From positions 17,882 through 81,881 of the forward strand of contig CACWLD010000004.1 in the NCBI GenBank assembly GCA_902761655.1: a stretch of 64,000 bases of DNA. Direction: 5' to 3'. The stretch is from an uncultured Bacteroidia bacterium. Lineage in GTDB: Bacteria > Bacteroidota > Bacteroidia > Bacteroidales > UBA932. Positions 2,379 to 64,000 of this stretch are shown piece after piece (within the stretch, counting starts at the first letter, position 1; each line of letters starts with the position of its first letter). The translations under genes were made by a program, and so were the position numbers. The notes under the pieces are model-generated. The model had not been told where the DNA came from. It ran no database searches and saw nothing but the letters and a program-made list of their open reading frames with translations.

Positions 2379-2442
2379 AATCGTCTTTTGTGAATTTTAA
2401 TTAATAATATATTAAGTAGTTATAATATTCTGCGGTTATTTC

Positions 2443-2463
2443 TTTCCGGACAAGGTCTGGAAA
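2443..2463. other. Short hairpin between asparaginase and exbB
   Basis: Nine-base arms (2443-2451 and 2455-2463) around a three-base loop, with one wobble or mismatched pair. It lies between the asparaginase stop and the exbB start. There is no clear U-tract on either strand, so it may be a weak terminator or an element of the exbB leader. Confidence 0.3.
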
Positions 2464-2501
2464 TCCGGTGCAATTTAGCAAAAAAAATTCATTTATCAAT
2501 T

Positions 2502-4303: not shown

Positions 4304-4314
4304 ATCATACAAAG

Positions 4315-9731: not shown

Positions 9732-11273
9732 TTACTTAGGGCCGAAGATGCCCTCAAGGAATGGTAAGAGTTCAGTGTATCTCCTGCTGAACCTGTTCCT
9801 GACAGGATCAGGGTGCATGCCATTGGTGGAGAACAGAATCTTCTCATTCTGGTCATAAACCTCCACTGTAGGGAATGATGTGTAGATTAATGTGGGATTG
9901 GAGTCAGGATAGAAATAATTGTACCAGCCATTGCAGCCCAGTTCCTCCACTGCGTTTTTCTGGCTTTCCCTATCTTTCCATAAGGAAATCTTATGGTCCA
10001 CCACTTGGGTCGTTACGGTTGCAAGGATTTCCAGCCCGTCGTTGTGGTATTTCTTGTAGTAGTCGTTCAGCTGCTTCATCAGCTCAATGCTTTCCTCTTG
10101 CCCGTATTCCCATAAAAGATGCACTGTGCATCGGTTGCGTCTTACAACTTCTTCCATCGTGAAATCCCTTCCTGAGAAATCAGTCATAGAGATTTCAGAC
10201 CAAATCTGTCCGGGTATTTCTACATTGCTGATATCAAATACATATCCCGGCTTTTGATCGAGAAGTTCGCCCAGGATATACCTTGCATCCTTTGATTCCA
10301 CATAGGATTGCGGGATGGTGCCTGAAAGGCAGTCGTCACATAATCTCAGCTGACGGCCCAACCTTGCCCAGGACGCGAAAGGCGATCCCGTGAACATATT
10401 CCCGCTTATGTTAAGACTATCCAATTTTGGTGAGCCTCCCATACTCTCGTACAACGGTCCGCCCAATTGCTCATTGACAGCAAAACTGAGCCATTCCAAC
10501 TTGGGGAAATTCCCGAAAATGTCCGGAACGGAGGTCAAGCCGGTAAACGAGATGCTCAGCCCTTCAAGGTTGACGAATTTGCCGAAGGAAGCCGGTATGG
10601 GACCGCAAAGCCCGGGCTCGTGGTCGATGAATATACTTTTGACAAGGCCGCCCAGATCTCCGAAGCTTTCAGGTATCTGGCCTTTGAGACCCTGGAATTG
10701 AAATTCCAGGAACAGGTCATTGAATACGCCCATATCCCTGAAATTTACTCCCGGCAGGGTTTCCCCGGGAATCCACGGCTTTCTCCAGTTGCGTGCATCA
10801 AGGGTCTCGTAGAAATCCTTCAATATGGTTTCAACCTTGGTTATATTGGGATGTACCTTCTGGGTGATGGCTAGTTTTACCGAAACCGTTGTCCTGCGGT
10901 CAAGTTTTGCGGCAATGGTAACGGTTCCTTTCCTCTTGAACAAGGTGTCATTTGCCTTGAAGGCCAGGACTATGTCATTGTTGTTTTCGGTGGCGAGGGG
11001 CTTTGGGAGGCCTGGATTCAATTTCTTTTTTTGGACGGAAATCCAGGACTTTGCATCGTCATCAATGGCTACGCCAACTTTGGGGATCGCATTGTTGGTA
11101 AGCGTGAGAGTTCCTTTTTTATAGGAAACAGATATTGCAACCGGCCTGATGGATGGCCTCGCAAACAGTTCATCCAGACTGCGCGTGATACTGGAATCCG
11201 GCAGACGCTGGGAAGGGAGTTTGGGTAAAGGATTAGGCATACAAAAAGAGATTGTTTTGATAAAAATAATCAC
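9732..11273 (-). CDS. Leucine-rich-repeat protein with thioredoxin-like C-terminus
   Basis: A 513-residue protein in three parts. Residues about 45-135 look like a BACON/Ig-type beta domain. Residues about 180-340 carry plant-receptor-style leucine-rich repeats (LKGQIPESFGDLGGLV, LSGTIPQSY). Residues about 375-513 resemble a TlpA/thioredoxin fold with the FPTVEVYD segment but no CxxC pair, so it is not a normal oxidoreductase. The start is uncertain: GTG at 11273 gives a short hydrophobic N-terminus, and ATG at 11240 gives none. Neither is a convincing signal peptide, which is odd for this class. It contains one of the few CATG sites outside the exb operon and looks more AT-rich than its neighbours. 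Confidence 0.75.
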   Translation of the reverse strand: MIIFIKTISFCMPNPLPKLPSQRLPDSSITRSLDELFARPSIRPVAISVSYKKGTLTLTNNAIPKVGVAIDDDAKSWISVQKKKLNPGLPKPLATENNNDIVLAFKANDTLFKRKGTVTIAAKLDRRTTVSVKLAITQKVHPNITKVETILKDFYETLDARNWRKPWIPGETLPGVNFRDMGVFNDLFLEFQFQGLKGQIPESFGDLGGLVKSIFIDHEPGLCGPIPASFGKFVNLEGLSISFTGLTSVPDIFGNFPKLEWLSFAVNEQLGGPLYESMGGSPKLDSLNISGNMFTGSPFASWARLGRQLRLCDDCLSGTIPQSYVESKDARYILGELLDQKPGYVFDISNVEIPGQIWSEISMTDFSGRDFTMEEVVRRNRCTVHLLWEYGQEESIELMKQLNDYYKKYHNDGLEILATVTTQVVDHKISLWKDRESQKNAVEELGCNGWYNYFYPDSNPTLIYTSFPTVEVYDQNEKILFSTNGMHPDPVRNRFSRRYTELLPFLEGIFGPK

Positions 11274-31105: not shown

Positions 31106-31159
31106 TATTCCGATAATTTCCCAAATTCTCACAAATATAATAAAAACCGAAATAAATGC

Positions 31160-31167
31160 TAACTTTG
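31160..31167 (+). promoter_or_regulatory. -7 box (TAACTTTG) of hisS
   Basis: Fits TAnnTTTG, 21 bases before the hisS ATG. A matching TTG element was not seen. Confidence 0.55.
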
Positions 31168-31188
31168 CAGACACTAAAACAATATTTT

Positions 31189-32535
31189 ATGGCACAAAAA
31201 CCATCAATTCCCAAAGGCACAAGAGACTTCTCCCAGCAGGAGATGGCCCAGAGGAATTATATATTCGATACCATCCGTTCCGTATTCAGGACATACGGCT
31301 ATTCACAGATAGAGACTCCCGCAATGGAAAACCTCCAGACCCTTATGGGTAAGTATGGAGAAGAAGGGGACAAACTGCTCTTCCGAATCCTCAATTCAGG
31401 AGATGCTTTCGCGGACGTGGATATGTCCAGGCCTTTGGCCTCCCAGGTGTGTGAAAAGGGCCTCAGGTATGACCTTACAGTGCCTTTCGCCCGTTTTGTG
31501 GTACAGCATCAGAACGAGATCAGTTTCCCGTTCAAGCGTTTCCAGATACAGCCCGTATGGCGCGCTGACAGGCCGCAGAAGGGCCGCTACCGCGAGTTCT
31601 ACCAGTGCGACGTGGATGTCATAGGCAGCCGCTCGCAGGTGAACGAGCTGGAACTGGTGCAGATCGTGGACAGGGTTTTCACCCTTCTGGACGTGAATGT
31701 GCTCATAAAGATCAACAACAGGAAAGTGCTCACCGGACTTGCAGAAATCTGCGGATTCCCGGACAAGGTGGTGGACATTACGGTGGCCATAGATAAATTG
31801 GACAAAATTGGCTTGGATGCCGTCAAGGAGGAGATGCTATCCAAGGGCCTTACCCCGGAGGCGGTTGCCGTGCTGGAGCCGGTGCTCCAGCTTTCCGGCA
31901 GTACCGCCGACAAGATTGCCCGTATGAGAGAGATGATGGACGGCAAGTCGGAAGCCGGGATGGAGGGCCTCCGGGAACTGGAGGAACTCTTCGGCTTCAT
32001 TGACGCGGCCGGTATCCGCAGCCAGGTGGAGATAGACCTCTCGCTGGCGCGCGGCCTCAATTATTACACCGGAGCCATCTTTGAGGTGAAAGCCCTTGAC
32101 TATCAGATAGGAAGCATCTGCGGAGGCGGCCGTTACGACAACCTCACCGGTATTTTTGGCCTGCCGGATATGTCAGGAGTTGGAGTGTCATTTGGCGCTG
32201 ACCGCATCTATGACGTACTCAAGGGCCTGGACAAGTTCCCTGAGGGTCTCAAGAGCACAACCACTCTGCTGTTCGCCAATATGGGAGAACTGAAATATGT
32301 CCTTCCCATTGCCAAGGCACTGCGAGAGGCCGGGGTTGCCGTCGAGGTCTATCCGGACAACACCAAGCTCAAGAAACAGTTCGATTACGCAGACAGGAAA
32401 GCCATCCCGTTCATCTCCATAAACGGCAGCGAAGAGGCCGCCCGCGGAGAGGTCCAGATCAAGAACCTCAGCAGCGGAGAGCAACGCAGTTTTGCCAAGG
32501 AAGACACAGACGGAATGATAAAATTTGTTTTTTAA
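31189..32535 (+). CDS. hisS: Histidyl-tRNA synthetase
   Basis: A 448-residue class II synthetase that charges tRNA-His. Motifs include [10 protein letters not shown] near the start, [12 protein letters not shown] (motif 2 region), [20 protein letters not shown], the histidine-A motif [25 protein letters not shown] (motif 3 region), and a C-terminal anticodon-binding domain. The ATG at 31189 follows the promoter with a 20-odd-base leader. The upstream in-frame start overlaps the -7 box and is rejected. Confidence 0.95.
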
Positions 32536-33368: not shown

Positions 33369-33387
33369 ATTCGAATTTTACGAAACA

Positions 33388-33864
33388 ATGAAGATTAAGT
33401 TTGGTTTGGTATTTCTGTTAGGTGCAATAAGTCTAAATCTTCACGCACAAGAAAGTACAGACTTAGACTCCGTGGTAGTAGTACGAGCAATAGATGTTTA
33501 TCTAGAGTATTGCACAAGTACAGATTCTGCCATTGAACATGCTATTGAGATTGGATTTCCTATTCAACGCCCAAGTCTAGCAATCAATCGCGTTGTCATC
33601 AATGATGAAAAGGAGATTGACATAATCAGGAACTGTTTTAATGGCATATGGTTAGGCCCATATAGGATTTCGAAGAAGAAGCGTTATTCATCTGCGAAAG
33701 CAGAAGATATGGGTTTCTACGGAGTTTCGAAAGATGGACTTGTGGTTATCTCTCTGAAAAGGAATGAGATATTTGACATCAATTGTCTGGAGAGTTGGCT
33801 TAAAGATATGATTAAGAATAATCCACAATATTTGAAAGAAACAATTCATAATTCCTACCGCTAA
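33388..33864 (+). CDS. AT-rich secreted protein of unknown function
   Basis: A 158-residue protein with a signal peptide (MKIKFGLVFLLGAISLNLHAQ). The ATG at 33388 is chosen because it begins that signal. The mature part has no recognised domain. It sits 19 bases after the preceding orphan and shares its AT-rich composition, so the two were probably gained together. It holds one of the rare CATG sites (33538). Confidence 0.6.
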   Translation: MKIKFGLVFLLGAISLNLHAQESTDLDSVVVVRAIDVYLEYCTSTDSAIEHAIEIGFPIQRPSLAINRVVINDEKEIDIIRNCFNGIWLGPYRISKKKRYSSAKAEDMGFYGVSKDGLVVISLKRNEIFDINCLESWLKDMIKNNPQYLKETIHNSYR

Positions 33865-33939: not shown

Positions 33940-33961
33940 ATTTGGAGTATTTGTCCTCTTT

Positions 33962-34040: not shown

Positions 34041-34042
34041 CT

Positions 34043-35020
34043 ATGTACAAACCACCCTTCACCGTATCTGCCAAGGCCATCAATTTGATTGCGAAGATTT
34101 CTAGTCAGCTTGAAAGATATGCAATCCGGATGGAACAGGAGGATACCTTGCGGCTCAGGAGAGCCAACCGGATTAAAACCATCCATTCCTCTCTGGCTAT
34201 CGAGGGTAACACCCTGTCTGAAGGTGAAGTTCAGGCCGTCTTGGAAGGCAAGAAGGTGGTTGCACCGTTGAAAGAGATCCAGGAAGTCAAGAACGCCATC
34301 AAGACCTACGAACTCTATCCCAAACTCAATCCCTTTTCCATTCAGGACCTTTTGCTGGCCCATTGTACGATGATGTCCGGCCTTGTCGATGAAGCCGGGA
34401 TGTTCAGAAAAGGGGGCGTCGGGGTTTTTGACGGAGACAAGCCCATCCACATCGCTCCCCCTGCGGACAGGGTCAGGGACCTGATGAGCGACCTTTTCGG
34501 ATGGCTTGAGAATGCCGATGACCATCTGCTCATCCGGAGTTGCGTCTTCCATTATGAGTTTGAATTCATCCACCCCTTCGCCGACGGGAACGGAAGAATC
34601 GGCCGACTCTGGCAATCCCTCATCCTCGGGCGGCTGAATCCCATTTTCGAGCATCTTCCTGTCGAGAACATGGTCTATTCCAACCAGCAGGCCTATTACT
34701 ATGCCATCAACCGGAGTTCCGACCTTGGCAACAGTGGCCCCTTCATCGATTTTATGCTGAAAGAAATCCTGGACGCACTCGTTGTCCATCAAGGAAAATC
34801 AAATGCCGACATTGCCGATGAGAAAGGCCTCAACTACCAACAACTAAGGGTCTTGGGGTATCTTCGTGCAGACAGACATACCACAGCGGCCAAGATTGCC
34901 GCTGACCTGGACATGAGCGCCCGCCAGATTGAACGGATGCTTGCCGATATGAAAGCCAAAAGCATCATCCGGCGGATCGGCGCCAACAGGAACGGCTATT
35001 GGGAAATCGTGGATGATTGA
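34043..35020 (+). CDS. Fic-domain adenylyltransferase with C-terminal winged helix
   Basis: A 325-residue protein. The Fic active-site motif HPFADGNGRIGR (His 177) is complete, so AMP transfer to hydroxyl groups of target proteins is expected. The N-terminal inhibitory helix S-x-x-x-E-G (Ser 50, Glu 54) is present, marking a self-inhibited class II Fic. The last 70 residues (DEKGLNYQQLRVLGYLRADR onward) form a winged helix, suggesting DNA binding. No antitoxin gene is adjacent. It contains two of the rare CATG sites (34669, 34912), hinting at transfer from a different genome background. Confidence 0.92.
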   Translation: MYKPPFTVSAKAINLIAKISSQLERYAIRMEQEDTLRLRRANRIKTIHSSLAIEGNTLSEGEVQAVLEGKKVVAPLKEIQEVKNAIKTYELYPKLNPFSIQDLLLAHCTMMSGLVDEAGMFRKGGVGVFDGDKPIHIAPPADRVRDLMSDLFGWLENADDHLLIRSCVFHYEFEFIHPFADGNGRIGRLWQSLILGRLNPIFEHLPVENMVYSNQQAYYYAINRSSDLGNSGPFIDFMLKEILDALVVHQGKSNADIADEKGLNYQQLRVLGYLRADRHTTAAKIAADLDMSARQIERMLADMKAKSIIRRIGANRNGYWEIVDD

Positions 35021-35079
35021 GAGCCTCCAGTAAATCAAGATTGATAATTCCTATCTTTATACCAATAAAGCGTATTGCT

Positions 35080-35721: not shown

Positions 35722-35746
35722 AGCGATTAATTATTATTCCTTGTTG

Positions 35747-35754
35747 CAAAGGTA
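35747..35754 (-). promoter_or_regulatory. -7 box (TACCTTTG) for the small membrane protein gene
   Basis: Reads TACCTTTG on the minus strand, 25 bases from the ATG at 35721. Confidence 0.5.
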
Positions 35755-35877
35755 CTTACGAGGGGTGCGGAAATGCAAGGTAGAATCCACAAGGACAGGT
35801 GTCAAATCCCAAAACAATGACTTGGAGACAACCTCAGAGTATGTTTTTGAGGAAGAATGCGTATTTTTGTATTAGGG

Positions 35878-36600
35878 ATGAAGAGAGGAATTATCATAGT
35901 CGCATACTGGCTGGCCGCAATCATTTTTACGGCCAGCATCCTTATGAGCCTCGACTATGACATAGGGCACGCCGCAATAATGAGCCTGTCATTCCTGCCC
36001 GCAGCAATGGCTTTGTCATTCTTCCTTCCCAAGGTAGAAAAGACGCAGGAAAAGAAAGAACGCGTTCTGGGTGCCATATTCATTATCCTGGGGGTGATGA
36101 CAATGACGTTCTTCTTCATATACCTTTGGCAGTTGCTTTTTGCCTTTGTCATCGATGGGGCCAGTGAAACCAGGTGGGATATGCCTTCAATGCTTTGGAA
36201 TCCAGTCTTTGTGGCTGCCGTTCTCGCCCTGCTCGCATACGGGCATTTCCATCTTCTGAAGTGGCTGGACAAGAAATATCCTACGGATGGTCCAATTACC
36301 TTCTACTCTGTCTACAAGAAGATTTCCCTGAAGCGAGAAGATATACTGTACATTGAATCCAGAGACTCCGAGGTCTGGATATATGCCCGAGACGGACAGC
36401 AGTATAGAAACAGAACCGGAATCAGCCAATGGGAGGACGTTCTTGGATCCGGTTTTGTCCGGATTCACAGATCCTATCTCGTCAACAGGACTTATGCGAG
36501 CGTTTCTTCTCCGGAATGCGTATGCGTGGCCGGAAAAGAATTGCCAGTTTCCAGAAAATATAAGGATGAGGTGTTCAGAATGAGGAGAAGTAATTATTAA
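35878..36600 (+). CDS. Membrane-anchored LytTR transcriptional regulator
   Basis: A 240-residue protein with four transmembrane helices (about residues 3-22, 29-48, 62-88, 103-123) joined to a C-terminal LytTR DNA-binding domain (about 145-240), seen in EDILYIESRDSEVWIYARDG and GFVRIHRSYLVNR. There is no receiver domain, so it is a one-component membrane regulator. The ATG at 35878 follows a TATTTTTG box at 35862-35869. The esterase gene follows after 26 bases and may be co-transcribed. Confidence 0.85.
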   Translation: MKRGIIIVAYWLAAIIFTASILMSLDYDIGHAAIMSLSFLPAAMALSFFLPKVEKTQEKKERVLGAIFIILGVMTMTFFFIYLWQLLFAFVIDGASETRWDMPSMLWNPVFVAAVLALLAYGHFHLLKWLDKKYPTDGPITFYSVYKKISLKREDILYIESRDSEVWIYARDGQQYRNRTGISQWEDVLGSGFVRIHRSYLVNRTYASVSSPECVCVAGKELPVSRKYKDEVFRMRRSNY

Positions 36601-39867: not shown

Positions 39868-40497
39868 ATGATTAAAAGATTTACCCTTATTGCGGCTGCC
39901 GCAGCCGCACTTATGCTTCTTTCAGGATGCGGCGGAAGCGAGACCAAAGAGACCGCATCAGGACAGTCGTTTGACGAGATAGTTGCCACCAGGCGCAGCG
40001 TGCGTGACTACAAGGAAGGCACAACCATAACCCAGGCCCAGGTGCGTGATCTTGTAGCCACAGCAATGGAGGCCCCTTCCTGGGCCAACAGCCAGACAAC
40101 ACGCTATTATGTTGCTATGGATCCGGAGAAAGTTGCGGCCGTAAAGGAACTGGTGGGCGCAGGTAACGCCAGGAACACCGCCAACGCTCCCGTAATGATA
40201 GTCTCCACCTTTGTCAAGGGCCAGTCCGGCTTCGGCCGCGGCAACCAGGTCAACGAGATTGGTGACGGCTGGGGCGCCTATGACAACGGAGTCAGCAACG
40301 CCTACTTCATTCTCAAGGCCCGTGAGCAGGGTTTTGACACCCTTATTATGGGAATGCGCGACTCCGACGGCCTTAGGAAACTGTTCAACATTCCTGACAC
40401 TGAGGAAGTTATGGCAGTTATCAGCCTTGGATATCGCGCATCCGATCCAAACCGTCCAGCCCGTAAAGGCATAGACGAGATTCTTAAATTTTTCTAG
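39868..40497 (+). CDS. Nitroreductase-family lipoprotein
   Basis: A 209-residue FMN-dependent nitroreductase fold (ATRRSVRDYKEGTTITQ at the start of the domain, EAPSWANSQTTRYYV, and LGYRASDPNRPARK at the end) carrying a lipoprotein signal (LLSGCGG, Cys about 22). Most nitroreductases are cytoplasmic, so an envelope location is unusual. The flavin would have to be loaded before or after export. Its stop overlaps the converging tricorn-like gene by four bases. Confidence 0.85.
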   Translation: MIKRFTLIAAAAAALMLLSGCGGSETKETASGQSFDEIVATRRSVRDYKEGTTITQAQVRDLVATAMEAPSWANSQTTRYYVAMDPEKVAAVKELVGAGNARNTANAPVMIVSTFVKGQSGFGRGNQVNEIGDGWGAYDNGVSNAYFILKAREQGFDTLIMGMRDSDGLRKLFNIPDTEEVMAVISLGYRASDPNRPARKGIDEILKFF

Positions 40498-43400
40498 CCC
40501 TTCAGTTCGCTGAGGACTTCAGCAATTGCGGCGTCAAGCTGAGGGTCTTTGCCCTCCAGGCGGTCCTGGAAAGTGTTCTTGACGTAGATGTCCGGTTTAA
40601 CACCGGTATTCTCCAGGTCTTTGCCGTCAACAACGCTGTAGCAGCCCCACGCCGGCAAACGACAGGTGGATCCATCGATGAGCCTTGCAGAAGAGGTGAA
40701 GATGATCCACCTGTAAGTTTCTGTACCTACCAGCTTGGCTATTCCAAGGGTCTTGATACCGTTGGAAGTAACCTCCGCGTCTGAAAGACTGTGCTCATTG
40801 ACCAGCACTACGATAGGCTTTCCCGCAGGTGCCACGTTAGGATGGCTGGTCCTGGGGAAGTCCCGGTACGCCCACTCGAAATGGGCCTGTCCGCGCAGGA
40901 AATCAATAACCTCCTTGTGTACGTTTCCACCATTGTTATAGCGCAGGTCAAGGATAAGCGCATCCTTGTCAAACACCTCCGTATGCATCTTGAGAAGGAA
41001 CGAGTTGAGGTCCTCGTCACCCATTGCCCTCATATGGATGTAGCCCACCCTGTCGCCGGTCTTGGCGGAAACCACATCGGCCCTCTGGTCCTCCCAGCGC
41101 TTGTATGCCAGGGTCTTGACATTTGAGAAGGTGGTGGTGTGCACCTTGACGTCGAACTCCTTGCCGCTGCGGCTGAAGGTGAGCTTAAGCTCATCCTTTC
41201 CCACAGCGCCGGAGAAGTACTTCTCACGGTTCTGCCTTGCATCTACCCTAACGCCGTCCACTGCAACCAGCTCATCGCCGTTGCGCAGGTCTATCTCAAC
41301 CTTGTCCGCTGGGGAGTCCACCAGGATGTAATCCACCTTGTAAGGCGCCTCGTTCTGGAAAACTATGCCTGTGCCATAGGTGCGGATGGATGTCTGGGGC
41401 CTCTCCTCCGTTCCGCTGGAAGTGAATCCCATATGGGAAGAATTCAGTTCTCCCAGAAGGTCTGCCATCAAGGTCCTGAGGTTGGCCCTGGTCCTGACGT
41501 AAGGCAGCAGGGAGCCGTAATAATCCCTTATGGAATACCAGTCCGCTCCGTGGAAATTGACATCGTAGTAGTTCTGCTCCAGGACGGCCCAGACCTCGTA
41601 GAACATCTGCCTGAACTCATCGTTCAGCACCACTTCCACGTCCTTTGTCACTGCGGTCTTTGCAGCGCTGCCGGCGTTCACGTCTATCTTGTATATTGCT
41701 CCGCTGCTCAGGCAGTACAGAGCGTCCTTGCAGCTGAAGAAGGTGCCGGAAGTGAGGTCACGGATCTGCTTGGGCTTTGCTTCCGGGTCAGATATTTCCA
41801 GGCAATACACGCCTCCTGGAGCCGATGCGAACGAACTGTAAAGCAGGTATGACTTGTCCTTGTTCTTGAACACGTACAGATTGTTCTGGCTGCCGTCACG
41901 CTCTACGCGTGTAAGCCTGCTGTGAATGTCCTTGTAGTCAATCACTACTGCGGAATCCTTCTTTGCCGGTTTATCCCCGAACAGTGCGTCCACCGCCTCA
42001 GACTTGAACGGAGTCTCGTACTTCCTCAAAGGCAGTTTGTACAATGACGCACGTGATCCCCTTGGGAAGGAGGACGAAGTAGGGTTCGCCAGCATATACA
42101 TATCCTTTCCGTCAGGGGAGAACACAGGGCTTTCTTCCACGGAAGCGGAGTTTGTGAGGTTCTTCAGGGTTCCGTCGGCAAAGCTGTATATGAAGATGTC
42201 CGGCTCGAACATATGCATTGCGTCAAATGCCAGGTAGTTGTCATCGAACGAGAAAGAAAGGCTATAGCGCTGGTATGACCAGAACTCCGCCTCAGTCAGC
42301 TTGCGGGCGACGTTGTTGTTCAGATCGAGCAGCATCACTGACTTGCTTCCGTCAACAAAGGCCATCCTGTCTCCCAGGTGGCTCAGGGTGAGGTTCTTGA
42401 CGTTGTTCTGAGAAAGATATACCACTGACTCGGGAGCGGAGCCGTCGGCTGCAACCTTATAGATGTTTGTCCAGCCCATATTGGTCCTGGTGTAGTAGAC
42501 GGTCTTGCTGTCAGGGCCCCAGACAACTTCAGCCACCCTTTCGTATGAAGGGGTTTCCAGTTTCTGGAGGAACTTGCACTTGGGGTCGGTGATGTAGAGG
42601 CCGCCCCTGATTACCAGGGCGAACTTCTTCCCGTCAGGGGAGACTGCGGCCGCGGAAGGTGTCTGGCCTGCGAAAGACCTGCGCACCTCCACGCTTCCGG
42701 AGGCTATGCTTATCTGCGGAACACTCACGCTGCCGGAAGGCAGGCTGAGGACATTGATCTCATAGTCCTTCAGGAATACCATTGCGGAGCCCCCGTAGGC
42801 CAGGTTGGGATACTGGACAGACTTGTCAAACGTGGTAAGCTGCTGTGGAGCGCCGCCGGGGACGTATTTTACTATGTTGGATTCCTTGTTCAGCTCATCG
42901 CTCACATAGTATATGTTGCCGTTGACATCGGCCATTGGCCACTGGTCCTTGCCAATGTAGCTTGTGAGCTCAGTGTAAGCCTTTGTCTTTGGATTCCAGG
43001 ACTTTATGTTTGGGTTATGGTCTCCCACGTAGCGTTTCCTGGTAGGGAAGCTGAGGCTCTCCATTGACTCGTTGAAAAGGAACTCACCGGTCTTTGGGTT
43101 TTCCGCCAGGTTCACTATGGTGTTGAAGTACCCGTCGAACATCAGCTGAGGGGTGCCTCCTTCCACGGATACCCTGAAAGAAGTCTTGCGCGCGCTTTCG
43201 CGCGTAGATTCAAAGTAGATGTATTTTGAGTCAGCGGACCAGGAGATGGGCACGTCCGGAGCCTCGTGGAAGGTGAGCTGTACTGCCTTGCCTCCGCCCA
43301 GCGGGACTGCGTATACGTCCGTATTTCCCTGGATGTCGGAGCTGAAAGCCAGCCATTTGCCGTCAGGAGACACCAGAGGTGAATCCTGCTCTCCCGTCAT

Positions 43401-43583
43401 TGTGATTACGGCTGTAGCCTGCCCTCCCGAGACAGGTACGGAGAAGATGTCTCCGTCATAACTGAAATAAATCTGCTTCCCGTCCGGAGACAAAGAAGGA
43501 TGGGAAGCGAATCTTAAGTTCTGTGAAAAAGAAAGGGTGGATGCCAAAAAAATATTAGCGGCGATGAAAAGTAAACGTTTCAT
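40494..43583 (-). CDS. Tricorn-like S41 protease
   Basis: A 1029-residue secreted protein. An N-terminal signal is followed by WD/TolB-type beta-propeller repeats (LSPDGKQIYFSYDGD, VSPDGKWLAFSSD and others, about residues 25-640), a PDZ-like domain (about 740-830), and a C-terminal peptidase S41 domain with VLVNEHSLSDAEVTS containing the catalytic Ser. It resembles tricorn protease and probably trims oligopeptides in the periplasm. It is 31 bases downstream of the GH9 gene on the same strand. Confidence 0.9.
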   Translation of the reverse strand: MKRLLFIAANIFLASTLSFSQNLRFASHPSLSPDGKQIYFSYDGDIFSVPVSGGQATAVITMTGEQDSPLVSPDGKWLAFSSDIQGNTDVYAVPLGGGKAVQLTFHEAPDVPISWSADSKYIYFESTRESARKTSFRVSVEGGTPQLMFDGYFNTIVNLAENPKTGEFLFNESMESLSFPTRKRYVGDHNPNIKSWNPKTKAYTELTSYIGKDQWPMADVNGNIYYVSDELNKESNIVKYVPGGAPQQLTTFDKSVQYPNLAYGGSAMVFLKDYEINVLSLPSGSVSVPQISIASGSVEVRRSFAGQTPSAAAVSPDGKKFALVIRGGLYITDPKCKFLQKLETPSYERVAEVVWGPDSKTVYYTRTNMGWTNIYKVAADGSAPESVVYLSQNNVKNLTLSHLGDRMAFVDGSKSVMLLDLNNNVARKLTEAEFWSYQRYSLSFSFDDNYLAFDAMHMFEPDIFIYSFADGTLKNLTNSASVEESPVFSPDGKDMYMLANPTSSSFPRGSRASLYKLPLRKYETPFKSEAVDALFGDKPAKKDSAVVIDYKDIHSRLTRVERDGSQNNLYVFKNKDKSYLLYSSFASAPGGVYCLEISDPEAKPKQIRDLTSGTFFSCKDALYCLSSGAIYKIDVNAGSAAKTAVTKDVEVVLNDEFRQMFYEVWAVLEQNYYDVNFHGADWYSIRDYYGSLLPYVRTRANLRTLMADLLGELNSSHMGFTSSGTEERPQTSIRTYGTGIVFQNEAPYKVDYILVDSPADKVEIDLRNGDELVAVDGVRVDARQNREKYFSGAVGKDELKLTFSRSGKEFDVKVHTTTFSNVKTLAYKRWEDQRADVVSAKTGDRVGYIHMRAMGDEDLNSFLLKMHTEVFDKDALILDLRYNNGGNVHKEVIDFLRGQAHFEWAYRDFPRTSHPNVAPAGKPIVVLVNEHSLSDAEVTSNGIKTLGIAKLVGTETYRWIIFTSSARLIDGSTCRLPAWGCYSVVDGKDLENTGVKPDIYVKNTFQDRLEGKDPQLDAAIAEVLSELKG

Positions 43584-43614
43584 GCCGCTAATATAGCAAT
43601 TATTTAGTCAGGGA

Positions 43615-46429: not shown

Positions 46430-47747
46430 ATGTTCAGCGCACAGACATACAAAGAAAGAAGGGAACGCCTCCGCAAACAATTGGACGGCGGCATCCTGTT
46501 TTTCCTGGGCAACGGGGAAGTTGGGATGAACTATGCGGACAATACATATCCTTTCCGCCAGGACAGTACCTTCCTGTACTACTTTGGCCTGGATTACGCC
46601 GGCCTTTCCGCCATAATGGACCTGGACTCCGGAGAGGACATAATCTTTGGTGACGAACTAACCATTGACGACATTGTCTGGACGGGTACAATGCCTACCC
46701 TGTCCCAAAACGCCCTGCTTTCCGGGGTTGGGAAGACCCTCCCTTCGGGGGAGTTGCGCCCGCTCCTTGAGAAGGCATCGGCGCAGGGAAGAAGCATAAG
46801 GTTCCTGCCTCCGTACAGGGGGGAGCACAGCGTGAAGCTGCTGGAACTTTTGGGTATAGCCCCATCTGAGCAGGCCTCGAAGGCCGATGAAGGCTTCATA
46901 AAGGCCGTGGTGGATATGCGCATACATAAAGGCCCGGAGGAGGTTGAGGCCATAGAGGAGGCGGTAGACATAAGCACCCGTATGCATCTTATCGCGTACA
47001 GGATGGCGCGCCCGGGGGTGCACGAGGCGGAGATAGCCGCCGCAGTCCGCAGGGAGGCGAGCCTGCGACAAGGGACGGACCTGTCGTTTCCAACCATAGC
47101 AACGGTCAAGGGGCAGGTGCTTCACAATCACGGATTCATCCATACATTGAAGGACGGAGACATTTTCCTGCTTGACGCAGGGGCAGAGAATGCCTTGCAT
47201 TACAGCGGGGACCTTTCGTCTTCAATGCCGGTGGGAGAGAAATTCACAGAGCGCCAGGAACTATCTGGCCGCGGCGCAGGCCATAGCGGAAGGGATGATA
47301 GACCTGGGCCTGATGAAGGGCAATCCTGAAGACATTGCACAGAGCGGGGCGTACGCCCTTGTCTTCCCTTGCGGGACGGGCCATATGATGGGCCTTGACG
47401 TGCACGATATGGAAAACCTGGGAGAACAGTATGTGGGCTACACCGGAGGGGAAAAGAAGAGCACACAGTTCGGATTCAAGTCACTGAGGCTCTCGCGCCC
47501 GCTGGAGCCGGGATTCGTGTTCACGGTGGAGCCGGGTATCTATTTCATCCCTGAACTGATCGACCTGTGGAAGTCCCAGGGCCTTTTCAAAGACTTCATC
47601 AACTATGACAGGTTCGAGGCCTGGAAAGACTTCGGAGGACTTCGCAATGAACTGGACTACCTCATAACTCCTGACGGATGCCGCGTGCTGGGAACCATCC
47701 GCAAACCAATGACAATAGAAGAAGTTTACCAAGCAAAGAATTTATGA
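46430..47747 (+). pseudogene. pepP: Xaa-Pro aminopeptidase (M24B), interrupted by a deletion/frameshift
   Basis: Two frames together cover the protein. Residues from 46430 (MFSAQTYKERRERLRKQLDG) run through the creatinase N-domain and the first metal ligands (LLDAGAENALHYSGDLSSS), then leave frame after FTERQ near 47257. The second frame, shifted by one, resumes with NYLAAAQAIAEGM and carries the remaining ligands (GHMMGLDVHD, TVEPGIY, RNELDYL). Compared with the family about 25 residues are missing at the join, so this is a deletion of 3n+2 bases rather than a simple indel. An intact enzyme would remove residues before proline. It is the first gene of the hypD operon, overlapping it by four bases. 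Confidence 0.8.
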
Positions 47748-50104
47748 ACGACAGGATAGAACGCCTGAGGCGGCAGAGCCTGGACACACCGGCAACCCTT
47801 TCCATAGAGAGGGCCCTGATAGAGACGGAATTCTATAAGGAGAACTACGGAAAATACCCTGTGGCAATTCTCAGGGCCAGGAATTTCTATGAGATCTGCG
47901 CCAGGAAAACCATATACATTGGCCCGGAAGAGCTGATAGTGGGGGAGAGGGGCCCGCGGCCAAAGGCCGTGCCCACGTTCCCGGAACTGACGTGCCACAG
48001 CGCGGAAGACCTTCGCGTGCTGGACACCCGCGAGCTTCAAAGCTATCACATAAGTGCCGATGACATAGAGACTTACCAGAGGGAAGTCATCCCTTATTGG
48101 GAGGGCAAGACGCAGCGCGAGCGAATCTTCGGCCACGTATCCAAGGAGTGGGAAGAGGCGTATCACGCCGGAGTTTTCACGGAGTTTATGGAGCAGCGCG
48201 CAGCGGGACATACGGCAATGGATGGCAGGATGTACCGCGAGGGCCTGCTGGATATCAAGGAGCGCATTGCAAAGCGCATCGCGGAGCTCGATTACATAAA
48301 CGATCCCAAGGCCACGGACAGGCAGCAGGAGCTGGAGGCGATGGCCATTTCCTGCGATGCGGCCATACTGTTCGCGCAGCGCCACGCGGAGCTGGCGCGC
48401 GAGTTGGCCGCCGCGGAGCAGAACCCCCGCCGCAAGGCGGAGCTCCTGAAGATCGCTTCCGTCTGCGACTGGGTTCCCGCCCACGCGCCGCGCGACCTAT
48501 GGGAAGCCATCCAAATGTATTGGTTCGTCCATCTTGGCACCGTTACGGAGCTCAACGGATGGGATTCAATGAACCCCGGTCACATTGACCAGCACCTGTA
48601 TCCTTTCTATAAGAAAGGCCTGGAAGACGGTTCTCTCAGTTATGATTCCGCAAAGGAACTCTTATGCTGCCTCTGGATAAAGTTCAACAACCAGCCGGCA
48701 CCTCCCAAAGTTGGCATAACCGCCAGGGAATCAGGTACATACAATGACTTTACTAACATAAACGTAGGAGGCGTTGACCGCAACGGCAACAGCGCCGTGA
48801 ACGACCTCTCCTATATGATCCTGGAAATACAGGAAGAACTTCACCAGCTTCAGCCCGGCCTCAGCATCCACATATCCCAGAACACTCCCGACTCATTCCT
48901 TGAAGCCGGCATCAGGGTAATCCGCAAAGGCTACGGCTATCCTTCAGTATTCAATCCTGACACCTATGTGCAGGAACTTGTCCGTCAGGGCAAAAGCCTT
49001 GAAGACGCCCGCGAGGGCGGCTGCTCCGGCTGCATAGAGGTGGGCGCCTTCGGCAAGGAAGCATATCTGCTGACAGGCTACCTGAACACGCCAAAGATAC
49101 TGGAGATAACGCTCAATGACGGCATTGACCCGGAAACCGGAAAGCAGATAGGCCTGCAGACCGGGGACCCGCGCACCTTCAAGGATTTCGAGCAGTTGTA
49201 CACTGCCTGGAAAACCCAGATGGAGTACTTCGTGAACCTGAAACTGAGCGTTAACAATTACATTGAAAGGATGTTCAGCCTGTACGCTCCGGCCACCTTC
49301 CTGAGCCTTTACATAGACGACTGCATAGACAAGGGAATGGACTATTACAGCGGAGGAGCAAGGTACAACACAACCTATATCCAATGCACCGGCCTTGGAA
49401 CCATAACAGACTGTCTGTCAGTGATTAAGAAGCACGTGTTCGAGGACGGCCGCTATACTATGGACCAGCTCCTTGCAGCCATCAGGCGCAACTTCCAGGG
49501 AGACGAACCGATGCGCCAGTACATCCGAACCCGCACCCCGTTCTTCGGTAATGACAACGCCTACGCAGACAGCATAGCCCTCCGCGTCTATGACGATCTT
49601 GTCAAGGCCATCGAGGGCCGTCCCAACACTCGCGGCGGCAAGACCTACCTGAATATGTTGTCCACCACCTGCCACAACTATTTCGGCCAGGTGTGCGGAG
49701 CTTCCGCGGACGGGCGTTTCGCCCATTTTGCCATTTCCGACGGCACCTCGCCCGCCCACGGCGCTGACACCCACGGCCCAACCGCAGTGATCCGCTCCCT
49801 TGGCAAGCTGGACCAGACCAGGAGCGGCGGCACCCTGCTCAACGTGCGCTTCACGCCCGCCCTCCTCAAGACTGACAGCGAGGTCACCAAACTTGGCAAG
49901 CTCATCCGCGAGTATTTCCGCCTCGGCGGCCATCATATCCAGTTCAATATCGTTGATACAGATACCCTGCGTGACGCCCAGCAGCATCCGGACCAGTACC
50001 GTGACCTGCTTGTGCGCGTGGCCGGCTACTCTGACTATTTCAATGATATGACCTCCCAACTCCAGGAAGAAATCATAGCCCGAACCCAGAACGAAGAATT
50101 CTAG
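47744..50104 (+). CDS. hypD: trans-4-hydroxy-L-proline dehydratase (glycyl radical enzyme)
   Basis: A 786-residue glycyl radical enzyme that dehydrates trans-4-hydroxy-L-proline to pyrroline-5-carboxylate. The thiyl Cys 430 and Glu 432 lie in GCSGCIEVGAFGKEAY, and the radical Gly 761 in RVAGYSDYF. Similarity to known HypD proteins runs the whole length (FTEFMEQRAAGHT, QMYWFVHLG, FNNQPAPPKVGIT, LSTTCHNYFG), which favours HypD over choline, glycerol or propanediol lyases. The ATG at 47744 overlaps the pepP stop (ATGA). The activase follows after nine bases. The proC gene that usually completes the pathway is not in the window. Confidence 0.88.
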   Translation: MNDRIERLRRQSLDTPATLSIERALIETEFYKENYGKYPVAILRARNFYEICARKTIYIGPEELIVGERGPRPKAVPTFPELTCHSAEDLRVLDTRELQSYHISADDIETYQREVIPYWEGKTQRERIFGHVSKEWEEAYHAGVFTEFMEQRAAGHTAMDGRMYREGLLDIKERIAKRIAELDYINDPKATDRQQELEAMAISCDAAILFAQRHAELARELAAAEQNPRRKAELLKIASVCDWVPAHAPRDLWEAIQMYWFVHLGTVTELNGWDSMNPGHIDQHLYPFYKKGLEDGSLSYDSAKELLCCLWIKFNNQPAPPKVGITARESGTYNDFTNINVGGVDRNGNSAVNDLSYMILEIQEELHQLQPGLSIHISQNTPDSFLEAGIRVIRKGYGYPSVFNPDTYVQELVRQGKSLEDAREGGCSGCIEVGAFGKEAYLLTGYLNTPKILEITLNDGIDPETGKQIGLQTGDPRTFKDFEQLYTAWKTQMEYFVNLKLSVNNYIERMFSLYAPATFLSLYIDDCIDKGMDYYSGGARYNTTYIQCTGLGTITDCLSVIKKHVFEDGRYTMDQLLAAIRRNFQGDEPMRQYIRTRTPFFGNDNAYADSIALRVYDDLVKAIEGRPNTRGGKTYLNMLSTTCHNYFGQVCGASADGRFAHFAISDGTSPAHGADTHGPTAVIRSLGKLDQTRSGGTLLNVRFTPALLKTDSEVTKLGKLIREYFRLGGHHIQFNIVDTDTLRDAQQHPDQYRDLLVRVAGYSDYFNDMTSQLQEEIIARTQNEEF

Positions 50105-58163: not shown

Positions 58164-58552
58164 AAACATTGCAGGAAATAGAGAACACCAGTTTCGAGCG
58201 TCTGGAACAGATCGCTAAGGAAGATGGCGTGCGCGTGCCCCGGGACCTTCAGGGCTCAGTGAGGGAGAGCGTGGCCGCCGCGGCACTGGCATCGGCAGGA
58301 GAAAGGAAGCCCGGCAGGGCAATGTGGCTCACATACGCGTTGCTCAGTATGTTCGCTGCCGCCTGCCTTGCCACCTTCTTTGTCATCCCTCGCACCCCCA
58401 AGGACACTTATGACGATCCGCTCCTTGCGTATGCCAAGGTGGAGGAGACCTTCGCCCTCATCTCAAAGCAGATGGACCGCGGTGTACAGAGCGCGCTCCT
58501 TGCAGAAGAATCATTGGAAACAGTTGACAGAATTATCAATAATACAAAATGA
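58160..58552 (+). CDS. Bitopic membrane protein, possible anti-sigma factor
   Basis: A 130-residue protein: a cytoplasmic N-terminus of about 50 residues, one transmembrane helix (about 54-74), and a short external part. No zinc-binding anti-sigma motif is seen. The role as anti-sigma is inferred from its translational overlap with the sigma gene and from its topology. Confidence 0.65.
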   Translation: MKTLQEIENTSFERLEQIAKEDGVRVPRDLQGSVRESVAAAALASAGERKPGRAMWLTYALLSMFAAACLATFFVIPRTPKDTYDDPLLAYAKVEETFALISKQMDRGVQSALLAEESLETVDRIINNTK

Positions 58553-59019
58553 AAAGGTTTATATTGATTGCGCTGGCCGCATTGTTTGGTGCGGGCGCAT
58601 TTGCCCAGGACGGCAAGTCTATCTACAACAAATACTCAGAGGCCGAGAACGTAAGCGCCGTGTATATTTCTCCGGCAATGTTCAAGCTTATGAAGAAGGT
58701 CCCGGACATCAACCTGGAAGGGGAGAGCGTGAACCTTGGACCCATCATCAAGACCCTCACGGGTATGTACATAATCAGCAGTGAGAATCCTGCAATCAAC
58801 GAGGATCTCAAGCATGACGTGGACCGTTTCATCCGCCGCGGCACCTACGAGATGCTTATGGAAGCCAAGGACAACGGCGAGGTTATGAGAATGTACACTA
58901 TGGGAAGCGAGAAGACCGTCACCGGCTTTGTGATGATGTCCTACGAGCAGGAAGAATGCAATTTTATTTGCATAAATGGCGAGATGCCCAGGGAGGCACT
59001 GGAGGAATTGATAAATTAA
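58549..59019 (+). CDS. DUF4252-family secreted protein (second)
   Basis: A 156-residue paralogue of the first DUF4252 protein with a signal peptide (MKRFILIALAALFGAGAFAQ). It overlaps the preceding gene by four bases. Both paralogues share the segment EMLMEVKD/EMLMEAKD followed by MRMY. It holds one of the rare CATG sites (58813). Confidence 0.82.
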   Translation: MKRFILIALAALFGAGAFAQDGKSIYNKYSEAENVSAVYISPAMFKLMKKVPDINLEGESVNLGPIIKTLTGMYIISSENPAINEDLKHDVDRFIRRGTYEMLMEAKDNGEVMRMYTMGSEKTVTGFVMMSYEQEECNFICINGEMPREALEELIN

Positions 59020-60724: not shown

Positions 60725-60728
60725 TGTT

Positions 60729-62969
60729 ATGAAACGATTATCTATTCTGATTTGTTTCCTTGCGCTGGCAGGATGCCGGCCCGGAGCAGTAACCATTGAC
60801 ACCCCTCAGGGCACCCTGTGCCTGGAACCTGTTGCCGCGGATGCCATCCGCGTCAGACTGACTCCGGAAGGAGCCCCTGATCTTGGGGAATTGATTTTTG
60901 TACAGAAAACCAAGACACCTAAATATAAGGTGGAGAAGAACGGCGCTGACATCACAGTGCGTACCGCACGGATGGCCGCGCAGTGGAGCGACGCCTCGCA
61001 GACGCTCACCTTCCTTGACGCGGAAGGCCGCGTGCTGCTCCAGGAGCTGCCCGGCGGCCGCACCGTCAAGGCCGTTGACGTGGACGGCTCTCCGGCATAT
61101 GCCGTAAGCCAGGCCTTCGACTCACCTAAAGGTGAGCACCTTTACGGCACCGGCCAGTTCCAGGACGGTTACCTGGATGTCCGCGGCCTTACAAGGCGCC
61201 TGACCCAGGTTAACACCCAGATATCCCTGCCAATGATCATCTCCAGCCGTGGCTGGGGTCTTCTCTGGCACAATTACGGCCTCACGGACTTCAATCCCGC
61301 TGACCACAGCATAAAGCTTACGGAAACGCAGGCTGACGGCGGCTCCGTGACCGTGAACGCCACGGGCACCGCCGGCAACCGCCGCGAGTTCCGCGCCTTC
61401 AGGACCTTCACCGGAGAGATTGAAATCCCTTCAGAAGGAGAATATGCACTCCTGCTTGACGTTGGCCGCGATATGGCCCGCCGACAGTACCTTGCAGTGG
61501 ACGGAGAGCCCATCATAGACATCTCCAACACCTGGCTTCCGCCAACCGCTGCGGTAAAGGCGCAGCTTTCCCCCGGAAAGCACACGCTTGAGGTGCAGGG
61601 GACCTTTGGCGATGCGCCTATAGTATTCTGGCGTGCCGTTGAAGAGAGCACAACCTTCTCCTCCCCAGTGGCAGAGGGTCTCGATTATACCGTATTCGCC
61701 GGAAATGCCGATGCTGTAATGCACAGTTTCCGCACCCTCTCCGGCCACGTTCCCGCAATGCCGGACTGGATTTTCCGCTATATCCACTGCCGCGAGCGCT
61801 ATGACACCCAGGAACAGCTCCTGGCCGCCGCCCGCAGGTTCAACCAGGAGAAGATTCCCGTTGGAACCATTGTACAGGACTGGCAGTGGTGGGGCAAATA
61901 CGGCTGGAACGCAATGCAGTTTGACGAAGGCAAATACCCTGATCCAAAGGCAATGGTGGACGAACTCCACTCTATGGACCAGCACCTTATGCTTTCAGTA
62001 TGGTCCCGCATAGGACGTGACTCAGAGCTTGGAAAGGAAGTTGAGGCCCGCGGCTACTACATTGCCGGAACCGAGTGGGTAGACTTCTTCCAGCCCGACG
62101 CCGCAAACTTCTACTGGGAGAATTTCAGCAGCAAGCTGGTTCCAGTTGGAATAGACGCCTGGTGGCAGGACGCCACCGAGCCTGAGAATGACGACCTCAA
62201 AGGCCGCCGCATAGGCCCGGACCAGATCCCCGGCGAATTCTATCGCAACGTATATCCTCTCAAGGTTGTCCAGACCGTATATGAGGGCCTGCGCCGCGAC
62301 CAGCCGGGCAAGCTGCCGGTAATCCTTACCCGCAGCTCTTTCCCCGGAATCCAGCGCTATGGCGCCGTCACCTGGAGCGGTGACGTTGGCAACGACTGGG
62401 ATACCCTGCGCCGTCAGATCATAGGAGGCCTTGGCCAGATGGCCGCCGGCCTTCCTTGGTGGACCTACGATGCAGGCGGATTCTTCCGTCCCGGCAACCA
62501 GTATTCAGATCCTGAGTACCAGGAAAGGATGATCCGCTGGATCCAGACCGCCGTTTACCTTCCGTTTATGCGCGTTCACGGCTATCAGAGCCGTACCGAG
62601 CCTTGGGAGTACAGTGAGGAGACTGAGCGCCTCTTCCTTGCCGCCATCGCTCAGCGCGAGGCCCTTCTCCCTTATGTCCTGGAGAATGCCCAAAAGGTAT
62701 GGAAGGATGACTATACGCTTATGAGACCGCTTGTATTCGACTTCCCTCAGGACGAGCAGGCCCTGAAGCAGGAGTGCGAATTTATGTTCGGACCTGACTT
62801 CCTGGTATGCCCTGTTCTTGCCGGTGGCGTTTCATCCTGGAGGGTTTACCTTCCGGAGAATGCAGCAGGATGGGAGGATGTACGCAATGGCACCCGCTAT
62901 GACGGCGGACAGTACCGTGACGTGCCGGTTGACCTGGAGGCCATCCCGGTATTCAAGCGTCTGAAATAA
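60729..62969 (+). CDS. GH31 alpha-glycosidase lipoprotein with PA14-like insert
   Basis: A 746-residue lipoprotein (LALAGC, Cys 16). A PA14-like module is inserted in the N-terminal region at about residues 215-315. The GH31 barrel carries the nucleophile Asp 481 in WWQDATEPEND, preceded by GTIVQDWQWWGKYGWN, and the SFPGIQRYGAVTWSGDV segment. Family alternatives are alpha-xylosidase and alpha-glucosidase. The PA14 insert and Bacteroidetes setting favour alpha-xylosidase on xyloglucan fragments, but this is not proven. The ATG at 60729 starts the lipoprotein signal. Confidence 0.9.
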   Translation: MKRLSILICFLALAGCRPGAVTIDTPQGTLCLEPVAADAIRVRLTPEGAPDLGELIFVQKTKTPKYKVEKNGADITVRTARMAAQWSDASQTLTFLDAEGRVLLQELPGGRTVKAVDVDGSPAYAVSQAFDSPKGEHLYGTGQFQDGYLDVRGLTRRLTQVNTQISLPMIISSRGWGLLWHNYGLTDFNPADHSIKLTETQADGGSVTVNATGTAGNRREFRAFRTFTGEIEIPSEGEYALLLDVGRDMARRQYLAVDGEPIIDISNTWLPPTAAVKAQLSPGKHTLEVQGTFGDAPIVFWRAVEESTTFSSPVAEGLDYTVFAGNADAVMHSFRTLSGHVPAMPDWIFRYIHCRERYDTQEQLLAAARRFNQEKIPVGTIVQDWQWWGKYGWNAMQFDEGKYPDPKAMVDELHSMDQHLMLSVWSRIGRDSELGKEVEARGYYIAGTEWVDFFQPDAANFYWENFSSKLVPVGIDAWWQDATEPENDDLKGRRIGPDQIPGEFYRNVYPLKVVQTVYEGLRRDQPGKLPVILTRSSFPGIQRYGAVTWSGDVGNDWDTLRRQIIGGLGQMAAGLPWWTYDAGGFFRPGNQYSDPEYQERMIRWIQTAVYLPFMRVHGYQSRTEPWEYSEETERLFLAAIAQREALLPYVLENAQKVWKDDYTLMRPLVFDFPQDEQALKQECEFMFGPDFLVCPVLAGGVSSWRVYLPENAAGWEDVRNGTRYDGGQYRDVPVDLEAIPVFKRLK

Positions 62970-64000
62970 TTAAGATTCAAGCTTCTTGCAAGTCTCCAGC
63001 AGATAAGTCTTGAGCTTCTGCCCGTTGAGCGGCAGGCCAAGCTTGTTACGGATAATATTGTTGTTGGTGTTGCTTGAAGCACGGCTGAAATGGGGCTCTA
63101 TATCTTTGGAATAGAGTCCCATTAAAAATAGGCAGCAGTAGCCAACCTCCCACTGTGTGAGGTTGTGTTCCTTGAGGAAGGCTATGAACTTGGGATGGCT
63201 GGCGGAGAACACCCTTGCGGTTGACAGGAGGAATTCGTCCCTGTTGCTCAAAAGTTCCTGTATGCTCTGGTCGGCGGCCTTGGAATCTACCGGATTGGAA
63301 GTAATATGTCCCAGCAGGACCTTGTCCAGCACGGCAAGGCGCTCGCCAACTATCTTGCGTGTCTCCTCATTCATCATTTCGGATTCACGGTGAGCGGCCT
63401 CAAGGGCGTCGCGCTCCCTTTGGAGATCGTCTGATTTCTGTTTGAGACTGCTAAAGCTCAACTGTATCCTTTCCAGGGCTTTCCTTCCATAATGTATTAT
63501 GCCCCATCCCAGCATCAACAGGATCCTGTAGCGCTCCTCCATAAAACGGGTGTCGAAATTAAGGACCTTCTTCAATTGTTTGTCACCTGCCTCCTTGCCC
63601 TTCTTGTGCATTTCTACGGCTTTCTGGAAATCTCCTTCGTTCTCGTAAATCTGTGACAGGCGCAAGTAGTAATCCACATTGAGGTCATCGGGATGATAGG
63701 ACGCGTAGTATCCCAGGACAAGGAGAGCTGAATCAACCTTGCCGCTGGCTGCGTATGCGTCCGATATGGCTAGCCAAGGCCTCATCCCGCTGTTAGGGAT
63801 TTCTGTGAAGCAGGAGTCTTTCAGCGCTTGGAGGTTTGCAGTGTCCTTGACGGCCGCCGCAATGTCAATCCTGCTCTTCAGATACTGGGATCTGACGGCA
63901 AGCCCAAGGCTGTCCCAGTAGGGGACAAGGTCATCCAAGGCCTGACCGGCGGAGGGGATGTCTCCCAGATTTACATAGTCATCGGCCAGGGAGGCCTGGG
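62970..64000 (-). CDS. DUF6377-like TPR membrane regulator, 5' end outside window
   Basis: The visible part has TPR-like repeats (about the first 150 residues), a hydrophobic segment (YRILLMLGWGIIHYG, short for a membrane helix), a coiled coil (SLKQKSDDLQRERDALEAAHRE) and a C-terminal helical domain ending LGLPLNGQKLKTYLLETCKKLES that looks DNA-binding. The reading frame stays open to base 64000 (in-frame codons for LADDYVNLGDIPSAGQALDD), so the true start is beyond the edge. It converges with GH31 with no gap. Probably a regulator of envelope or carbohydrate functions. Confidence 0.75.
   Translation of the reverse strand, partial: QASLADDYVNLGDIPSAGQALDDLVPYWDSLGLAVRSQYLKSRIDIAAAVKDTANLQALKDSCFTEIPNSGMRPWLAISDAYAASGKVDSALLVLGYYASYHPDDLNVDYYLRLSQIYENEGDFQKAVEMHKKGKEAGDKQLKKVLNFDTRFMEERYRILLMLGWGIIHYGRKALERIQLSFSSLKQKSDDLQRERDALEAAHRESEMMNEETRKIVGERLAVLDKVLLGHITSNPVDSKAADQSIQELLSNRDEFLLSTARVFSASHPKFIAFLKEHNLTQWEVGYCCLFLMGLYSKDIEPHFSRASSNTNNNIIRNKLGLPLNGQKLKTYLLETCKKLES

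Follow-up and report, generated by a model that had tools for sequence, protein, structure and literature searches.

The avoidance of restriction sites is generally treated as a bias of the genome that carries the enzyme. For the word CATG, the type enzyme is NlaIII. The methylase M.HpyI also targets this site (PMC10423294), and the avoidance of another four-letter palindrome, GTAC, has been explained as a consequence of prolonged attack on DNA, whether resident or incoming (PMC10273834). Here, CATG is examined in a 64,000 nucleotide stretch of an uncultured Bacteroidia bacterium (contig CACWLD010000004.1, positions 17,882 to 81,881), referred to as the window, which lies on contig 4 of an assembly of 2.0 Mb in 63 contigs that is 93.7% complete. 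Approximately 95% of CATG sites are gone from this genome through other codon choices.

Expected counts throughout are those of a maximal-order Markov model. The first 2,400 nucleotides of the window, which hold an exb operon, contain 10 CATG sites against 10.5 expected (at 136, 160, 406, 991, 1003, 1458, 1899, 2172, 2337 and 2361), in contrast with the remainder, where the Poisson log10 P of six or fewer sites is -90:

2401..64000: CATG-depleted stretch, 6 sites against 233 expected, resembling the rest of the genome (ratio of observed to expected 0.048)
16..486, minus strand: ExbD-family gene of the exempt operon, three CATG (TTC-ATG, AGC-ATG, TTC-ATG)
505..1083, minus strand: ExbD-family gene, two CATG (CTC-ATG, ACC-ATG)
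1092..1532, minus strand: small exb-operon gene, by eye a membrane protein, one CATG (GTC-ATG)
1596..2378, minus strand: MotA/TolQ/ExbB-family gene, four CATG (TTC, CTC, TTC and AAC before ATG)

A preliminary description of this DNA had found six copies in the depleted stretch by reading, where about 240 were expected; a machine count returns identical positions (9816, 33538, 34669, 34912, 43581 and 58813), and the Markov expectation of 233 is close to the earlier figure. Across the whole window, CATG has the lowest ratio of observed to expected of all 256 tetranucleotides (0.066), followed by CTAG (0.216) and CTAA (0.52). The remaining 14 palindromes range from 0.65 to 1.41, and hence the shortage is specific to CATG rather than part of a similar depletion of many palindromes, the outcome against which the claim had been set. 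CTAG is itself low (17 against 78.6 expected) and TCGA high (124 against 87.7) in the whole window. Over 1,872,769 of the 2,005,445 assembled bases, 336 CATG are observed against 6960 expected, an unmasked ratio of 0.048, with 184 of the 336 sitting in clusters of at least three.

The way in which the word has been removed is apparent from codon choice, for which the codon and frame figures cover approximately 60% of the genome. As had been proposed from the rarity of methionine codons after C, the C-ending share of four-fold degenerate codons falls from 0.505 before ATC or ATT to 0.007 before ATG (50.5% to 0.7%), with A, G and T all rising, while that of two-fold codons falls from 0.752 to 0.019. 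In the other frames, the share of histidine codons written as CAT is 0.017 before G, compared with 0.376-0.479 before other bases, and that of NCA is 0.004 before TG, compared with 0.231. Each frame thus has its own escape: C is replaced by T, A or G in one, T by C in another, and A by C, G or T in the third. Outside genes, once clusters and contig ends are masked, divergent intergenic DNA contains one CATG against 38.8 expected and convergent intergenic DNA two against 27.5. As all three reading frames, divergent intergenic DNA and several escape bases are involved, the force is best read as site-specific selection on the CATG word in DNA, rather than as a codon, RNA or deamination effect; selection at the codon or RNA level is ruled out by the frame independence and the divergent intergenic depletion together.

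A mutational bias, whether deamination of methylcytosine or CATG-directed repair, is very improbable as the cause, although a repair bias had been among the original suggestions. Such a bias could account for C to T and its complement being the commonest difference from the CATG sites of the sister species (452 of 863), and for T rising most before ATG relative to non-depleted controls. An even spread of the lost C over the other three bases, which seemed likely at first, is less well supported with a larger control of non-depleted genomes, against which T gains most, although A and G also gain. However, the CAT-G and NCA-TG arrangements, which a C-to-T change cannot clear synonymously, are nearly gone as well, the former through CAC-G by T to C, and this rules out cytosine deamination. 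Furthermore, no C5 methylase matches in the assembly, and sites are kept both in the exb operon and in 4 of 39 transfer RNA (tRNA) genes, two tRNA-Met genes being among the tolerated sites.

The likeliest cause, held with somewhat better than even confidence, is CATG restriction pressure of the NlaIII/HpyI kind, from a system that is hidden, very recently lost or external. Long exposure to NlaIII-type restriction, as first suggested, remains the best-supported class of explanation, given the palindromic target, the frame independence, the reach into divergent intergenic DNA and the many escape routes. Purifying selection on the DNA word itself would then purge CATG from the genome, the agent probably being a CATG-specific Type II restriction pressure. 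A small cost would attach to every CATG left unprotected or under-methylated, through occasional self-cutting or the loss of incoming homologous DNA, and this cost would be of the order of codon-usage selection, a ratio of about 0.02 giving on our estimate a scaled coefficient of about 4 (ln 1/0.02). The sites tolerated in exb and in the two tRNA-Met genes imply that the cost per CATG is small, and lethal unprotected cutting at present is ruled out by the 336 remaining sites, some of them in tRNA genes. The cognate methylase, which has left no trace in the assembly, may belong to a system that was very recently lost, that lies on unassembled or unbinned DNA, or that is outside the cell's gene set altogether.

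The relatives of this bacterium were placed using the gene for histidyl-tRNA synthetase:

31156..32535, plus strand: hisS, histidyl-tRNA synthetase, phylogenetic marker, no CATG, where the sister species G358 has four

By hisS, its relatives are for the most part uncultured Bacteroidales of gut and rumen, including Candidatus Cryptobacteroides faecavium (75%), and the genus is probably Cryptobacteroides. The tree of this single gene is ((G001,G177),(G358,(G000,G331))), where G000 is the source genome. The ratio of 0.048 in G000 compares with 0.14 in G331, 0.26 in G177, 0.30 in G001 and 0.77 in G358, the figures for the relatives coming from 76 kb, 48 kb, 81 kb and 327 kb of their genomes, respectively. 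In 236 kb aligned to G358 (85% identical), 16 of the 863 CATG in G358 are kept in G000, compared with 353 of 755 for the control word GTAC, and 16 of the 22 CATG that G000 has within the alignment are common to both species. When changes are polarised by parsimony with G001/G177 as the outgroup (46,767 aligned four-mers, with 83 CATG sites ambiguous), G000 has gained no CATG, whereas eleven other palindromes each show between 8 and 47 gains. Of the 25 CATG common to G358 and the outgroup, 19 are lost in G000, against 14 of 41 for GTAC. Most residual sites are therefore old, with no build-up of new ones. The absence of gains implies that the pressure either still acts or ceased very recently.

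This timing bears on the suggestion that the shortage is the trace of a lost restriction system, with nothing acting now, which appears unlikely, at roughly one chance in four. Avoidance without a matching system has been documented as a vestige (PMC4687349), and partial recovery would fit the ratio of 0.77 in G358 and its excess of A before ATG (0.312 against 0.192, compared with 0.120 against 0.101 in non-depleted relatives). G358 may be recovering from a past depletion: it shows 67 apparent polarised gains of CATG against one loss, a pattern that two depleted lineages losing sites in parallel could also produce, and the controls for recovery were small sets or came from other species. By contrast, the sites of G000 are not recovering, and the lack of gains together with the 16 of 22 sites common to G358 implies that any loss was very recent relative to that split. 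Nor was such a system found in the close relatives (PF02086 and PF01555 in none of eight genomes), an HpyI-like methylase being seen only in the distant genome G458.

Several places are exempt from the avoidance. All ten CATG of the exb operon consist of a C-ending codon followed by ATG (NNC-ATG). The preliminary description contrasts this operon with the depleted DNA; the operon is 96% identical to its counterpart in G331 and 90% to those in G001 and G177, and its sites are found at 10 of 10 positions in G331, 7 of 10 in G177 and 7 of 10 in the more distant depleted G030; this vertical inheritance, with the CATG sites common to relatives, rules out a foreign origin. In the depleted G022, the operon has two CATG against 10.3 expected, with none of the ten sites in common, and in G047 three against 8.4, with one in common. 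Thus exb is an old, vertically inherited exempt locus, though not exempt in every depleted species, and its contrast with the surrounding DNA would reflect codon-usage selection, or slow synonymous change, resisting CATG avoidance. There is a gradient with codon bias, the ratio being 0.17 in the top 20 genes, 0.043, 0.084 and 0.043 in the next three bins and about 0.02 in the rest, on an index trained on ten rpoB-region genes that are themselves among those ranked. The rpoB and rplA genes, named by eye from the start of the sequence, keep three CATG each. The 99 genes with a third-position GC below 0.5, many of them in AT-rich islands, have 95 CATG against 188 expected. CATG-rich islands are seen at about 76.5-80.5 kb of contig 1 (L028/L029) and in other AT-rich islands of the assembly. 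Pieces of 16S were present in two of 28 assemblies (G055 and G144), and the G055 locus has CATG, some at 16S sites judged by eye to be conserved, although contamination is possible.

The residual sites of the depleted stretch are distributed as follows:

9816..9819: residual CATG within the gene 9732-11273 (minus strand), with a weak leucine-rich repeat match
33538..33541: residual CATG in the CAT-G frame, open reading frame 33286-33864 (plus strand), in an AT-richer island
34669..34672: residual CATG in the Fic-like gene 34043-35020 (plus strand), in the island
34912..34915: second residual CATG in the Fic-like gene 34043-35020 (plus strand), in the island
43581..43584: residual CATG overlapping the start codon of the gene 40494-43583 (minus strand)
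58813..58816: residual CATG in the CAT-G frame, DUF4252 gene 58549-59019 (plus strand)

The island, at 32901-36600, has a GC content of 0.446, compared with 0.533 in hisS and 0.577 in the gene that follows. The earlier placement of three of the six sites in this accessory island holds, as does that of one in the gene at 9732-11273, but the leucine-rich repeat label given to that gene corresponds to a Pfam LRR_8 match at E 0.0009, below the curated cut-off. Elsewhere in the window, the gene at 47678-50104 (plus strand) is a trans-4-hydroxy-L-proline dehydratase, a glycyl radical enzyme (1138 bits against an NCBIfam curated cut-off of 1100).

A more distant relative provides a comparison for the proposed agent. 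A 21 kb locus of Rikenellaceae bacterium SIG172 (L262) has no CATG against 72 expected, and ratios of 0.0 for GCGC and 0.01 for GATC. The SIG172 genome encodes a D12 methylase (the G458 methylase), among the homologues of which is an HpyI-like annotation. This favours CATG restriction as the type of agent, and, since a D12 gene was detected there, the profile used would have seen such a gene in G000. With the G458 methylase as the query, tblastn against the 1.87 Mb of G000 contigs gave a best E of 4.0, and no close relative of the HpyI-like methylase turned up in a viral scan. Two records filed as plasmids, NZ_CP119140.1 (2.17 Mb, N. gonorrhoeae) and NZ_CP077849.1 (3.66 Mb, A. baumannii), are chromosome-like by size. 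Extreme taboos are also seen in other uncultured Bacteroidales, with CATG at 0 against 50.5 expected (L230) and 1 against 58.2 (L260), ACGT at a ratio of 0.03 (L265 and L295) and GGCC at 0.0 (L263).

A number of results weigh against CATG restriction pressure as the cause. Non-coding DNA is less depleted than coding DNA, with 15 CATG against 128.7 expected in total, and 12 against 61.3 in same-strand intergenic DNA, compared with 121 against 6315 in coding sequence; the clusters masked in this count were defined by CATG itself, so the masked ratio of 0.023 is biased low. In the assembly, PF02086 (D12), PF01555 (N6_N4), PF00145 (C5) and PF02384 (N6_Mtase) have no match at E <= 0.001. In the 1.87 Mb, 13 open reading frames of more than 150 amino acids carry an amino-methyltransferase motif IV; judged by eye from their N-terminal sequences, they resemble housekeeping or unrelated proteins (RsmD, PrmC, TrmN6-like, Era, MetF, RimO and unrelated proteins). 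Taken with the tblastn search, these scans did not bear out the matching resident methyltransferase that had been proposed. Neither PF02086 nor PF01555 was found in eight neighbourhood genomes, including the four nearest relatives; among G000, G001, G331, G358 and G177, the first two were searched for PF00145 and PF02384, and the G331, G001 and G177 assemblies are 74-78% complete. No CATG endonuclease was identified, and PADLOC scans of 186 accessory proteins (86 of 116 references in set A1 and 100 of 123 in set A2) gave no restriction enzyme among the families listed, which were 25 of 158 in one scan and 25 of 26 in the other. The G458 methylase is likely to be CATG-specific, judging by the annotation of distant homologues, but other homologues are labelled as LlaI or FokI methylases, and the protein falls short of every NCBIfam cut-off and matches nothing in the PDB; as SIG172 also lacks GATC and GCGC, its D12 gene could serve another word. 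Finally, the CATG methylase is universal in H. pylori, yet CATG is the densest target motif there (PMC10423294), which implies that a CATG system alone does not force avoidance.

The distribution of methylase families among relatives is of the same tenor. By GCATGC count, 12 of 73 species in the genus are CATG-poor, these having been picked by eye at 88 or fewer where the other 61 have at least 205 (G041 and G065, intermediate relative to their controls, are counted among the 61, and G031 is low in pattern and control alike). No methylase family is enriched in the 12, on per-species lists copied by hand: comparing CATG-poor with other species, D12 is found in 1/12 and 19/61, N6_N4 in 5/12 and 17/61, C5 in 1/12 and 10/61 and N6_Mtase in 3/12 and 23/61, while no match to any of the four is seen in 5/12 and 23/61. 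For the named relatives, the CATG ratio is below 0.35 at 15 of 80 loci, and D12 occurs in one of the 14 CATG-poor genomes and in five of the 16 others, a comparison that left out the CATG-poor L259 (14 of 15 tested) and may overlap with the genus set. As regards defence genes of other kinds, the PADLOC matches among those listed include Kiwa-like (KwaA/KwaB-like), PDC-M62 and PtuA-like proteins, these being in the AT-rich accessory set, as well as others, mad1 and PD-T4-2_B among them. A mad3 match was rejected as a MADS system, being one AAA-type protein that also matches AriA, mad8 and HEC-01A.

Despite these results, a resident, methylase-protected CATG system that is absent from the assembly, being in the unassembled 6%, on a strain-variable island or on an unbinned plasmid, is a substantial possibility, falling a little short of an even chance. 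Restriction islands vary between strains, and the assembly, in 63 contigs, is 93.7% complete; the CATG-rich islands are tolerated, as expected were their sites methylated, and no new CATG is seen in G000. Against this, PF02086 and PF01555 were not found either in the remaining depleted genomes of this clade, G331, G001 and G177 (74-78% complete), and PF02086, although recovered in 19 of the 61 other genomes of the genus, is found in only one of the 12 CATG-poor ones and one of the 14 named ones. The D12 copy in G031 shows no tblastn similarity to the HpyI-like methylase at E <= 1.

Alternatively, the pressure may be extrinsic, with CATG-cutting neighbours or phages restricting exchanged DNA, such that CATG-free alleles recombine better and no resident system is needed; this seems improbable, slightly more so than a lost system. 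The recurrence of CATG-poor genomes (12 of 73 in the genus, and 15 of 80 named loci) without a common methylase family would be explained, and easier exchange between strains is offered by Rusinov et al. as a reason for GATC avoidance (PMC4687349). At methylase-bearing loci of genus relatives (L001-L024), C before ATG is lower (0.298 against 0.566 for two-fold codons), as if these were in frequent contact with CATG restriction. However, neither a high rate of recombination nor a CATG cutter among its neighbours is directly supported by the data, and the sister species G358 is nearly normal, at 0.77. The resident, lost and extrinsic readings are all versions of CATG restriction pressure, and their probabilities overlap with that of the favoured explanation.

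A further, doubtful possibility, placed just below an extrinsic pressure, is a taboo that does without modification: a CATG-targeting defence, or a community-wide exchange barrier, under which self would be known by the near-absence of CATG, not by methylation. Selection on the scale of codon usage would keep the word out, and mainly constrained sites, as in exb and the tRNA genes, and recent imports would remain.

Whatever the cause, CATG in this genome is nearly abolished and not returning, while the CATG-linked methylase family was not found in the clade and a sister species is nearly normal. This represents a natural experiment on the strength and age of restriction pressure, on its action without a resident methylase, and on its contest with codon-usage selection in exb and the rpoB-rplA cluster. 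Loci poor in CATG or other palindromes recur in gut and rumen Bacteroidales, sometimes with several palindromes affected together.

No account of CATG avoidance in this genus appeared among the literature matches listed, as represented by titles and abstract openings. The closest general parallel is the avoidance of orthodox Type II sites (Rusinov et al. 2015, PMC4687349), which likewise concerns a palindrome in genome-wide shortage, common to relatives and possible without a matching system. The ratio of 0.048 in G000 is far under the cut-off of 0.78 in that paper, although it is a Markov ratio here and Kr there. Unlike the traces described in the same work, G000 gains no sites, which argues against an old vestige, and the matching methylase class was not found in five close-clade assemblies. 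The avoidance of GTAC with PabI-family enzymes in Helicobacter and Campylobacter (PMC10273834) is alike in that one four-letter palindrome is rare across related genera, but the word is a different one, and the enzyme family is inherited there, whereas none was found in G000. The NlaIII/HpyI systems (iceA1-hpyIM) act on the same site, and a D12 gene with HpyI-like annotated homologues is present in a relative with a CATG-free locus; by contrast, the system was not found in G000 and its close relatives, and CATG in H. pylori is dense, not avoided (PMC10423294). The kind of phenomenon is a known one (PMC4687349); what is unusual is that the avoidance is almost complete and still being maintained while no methylase is in sight.

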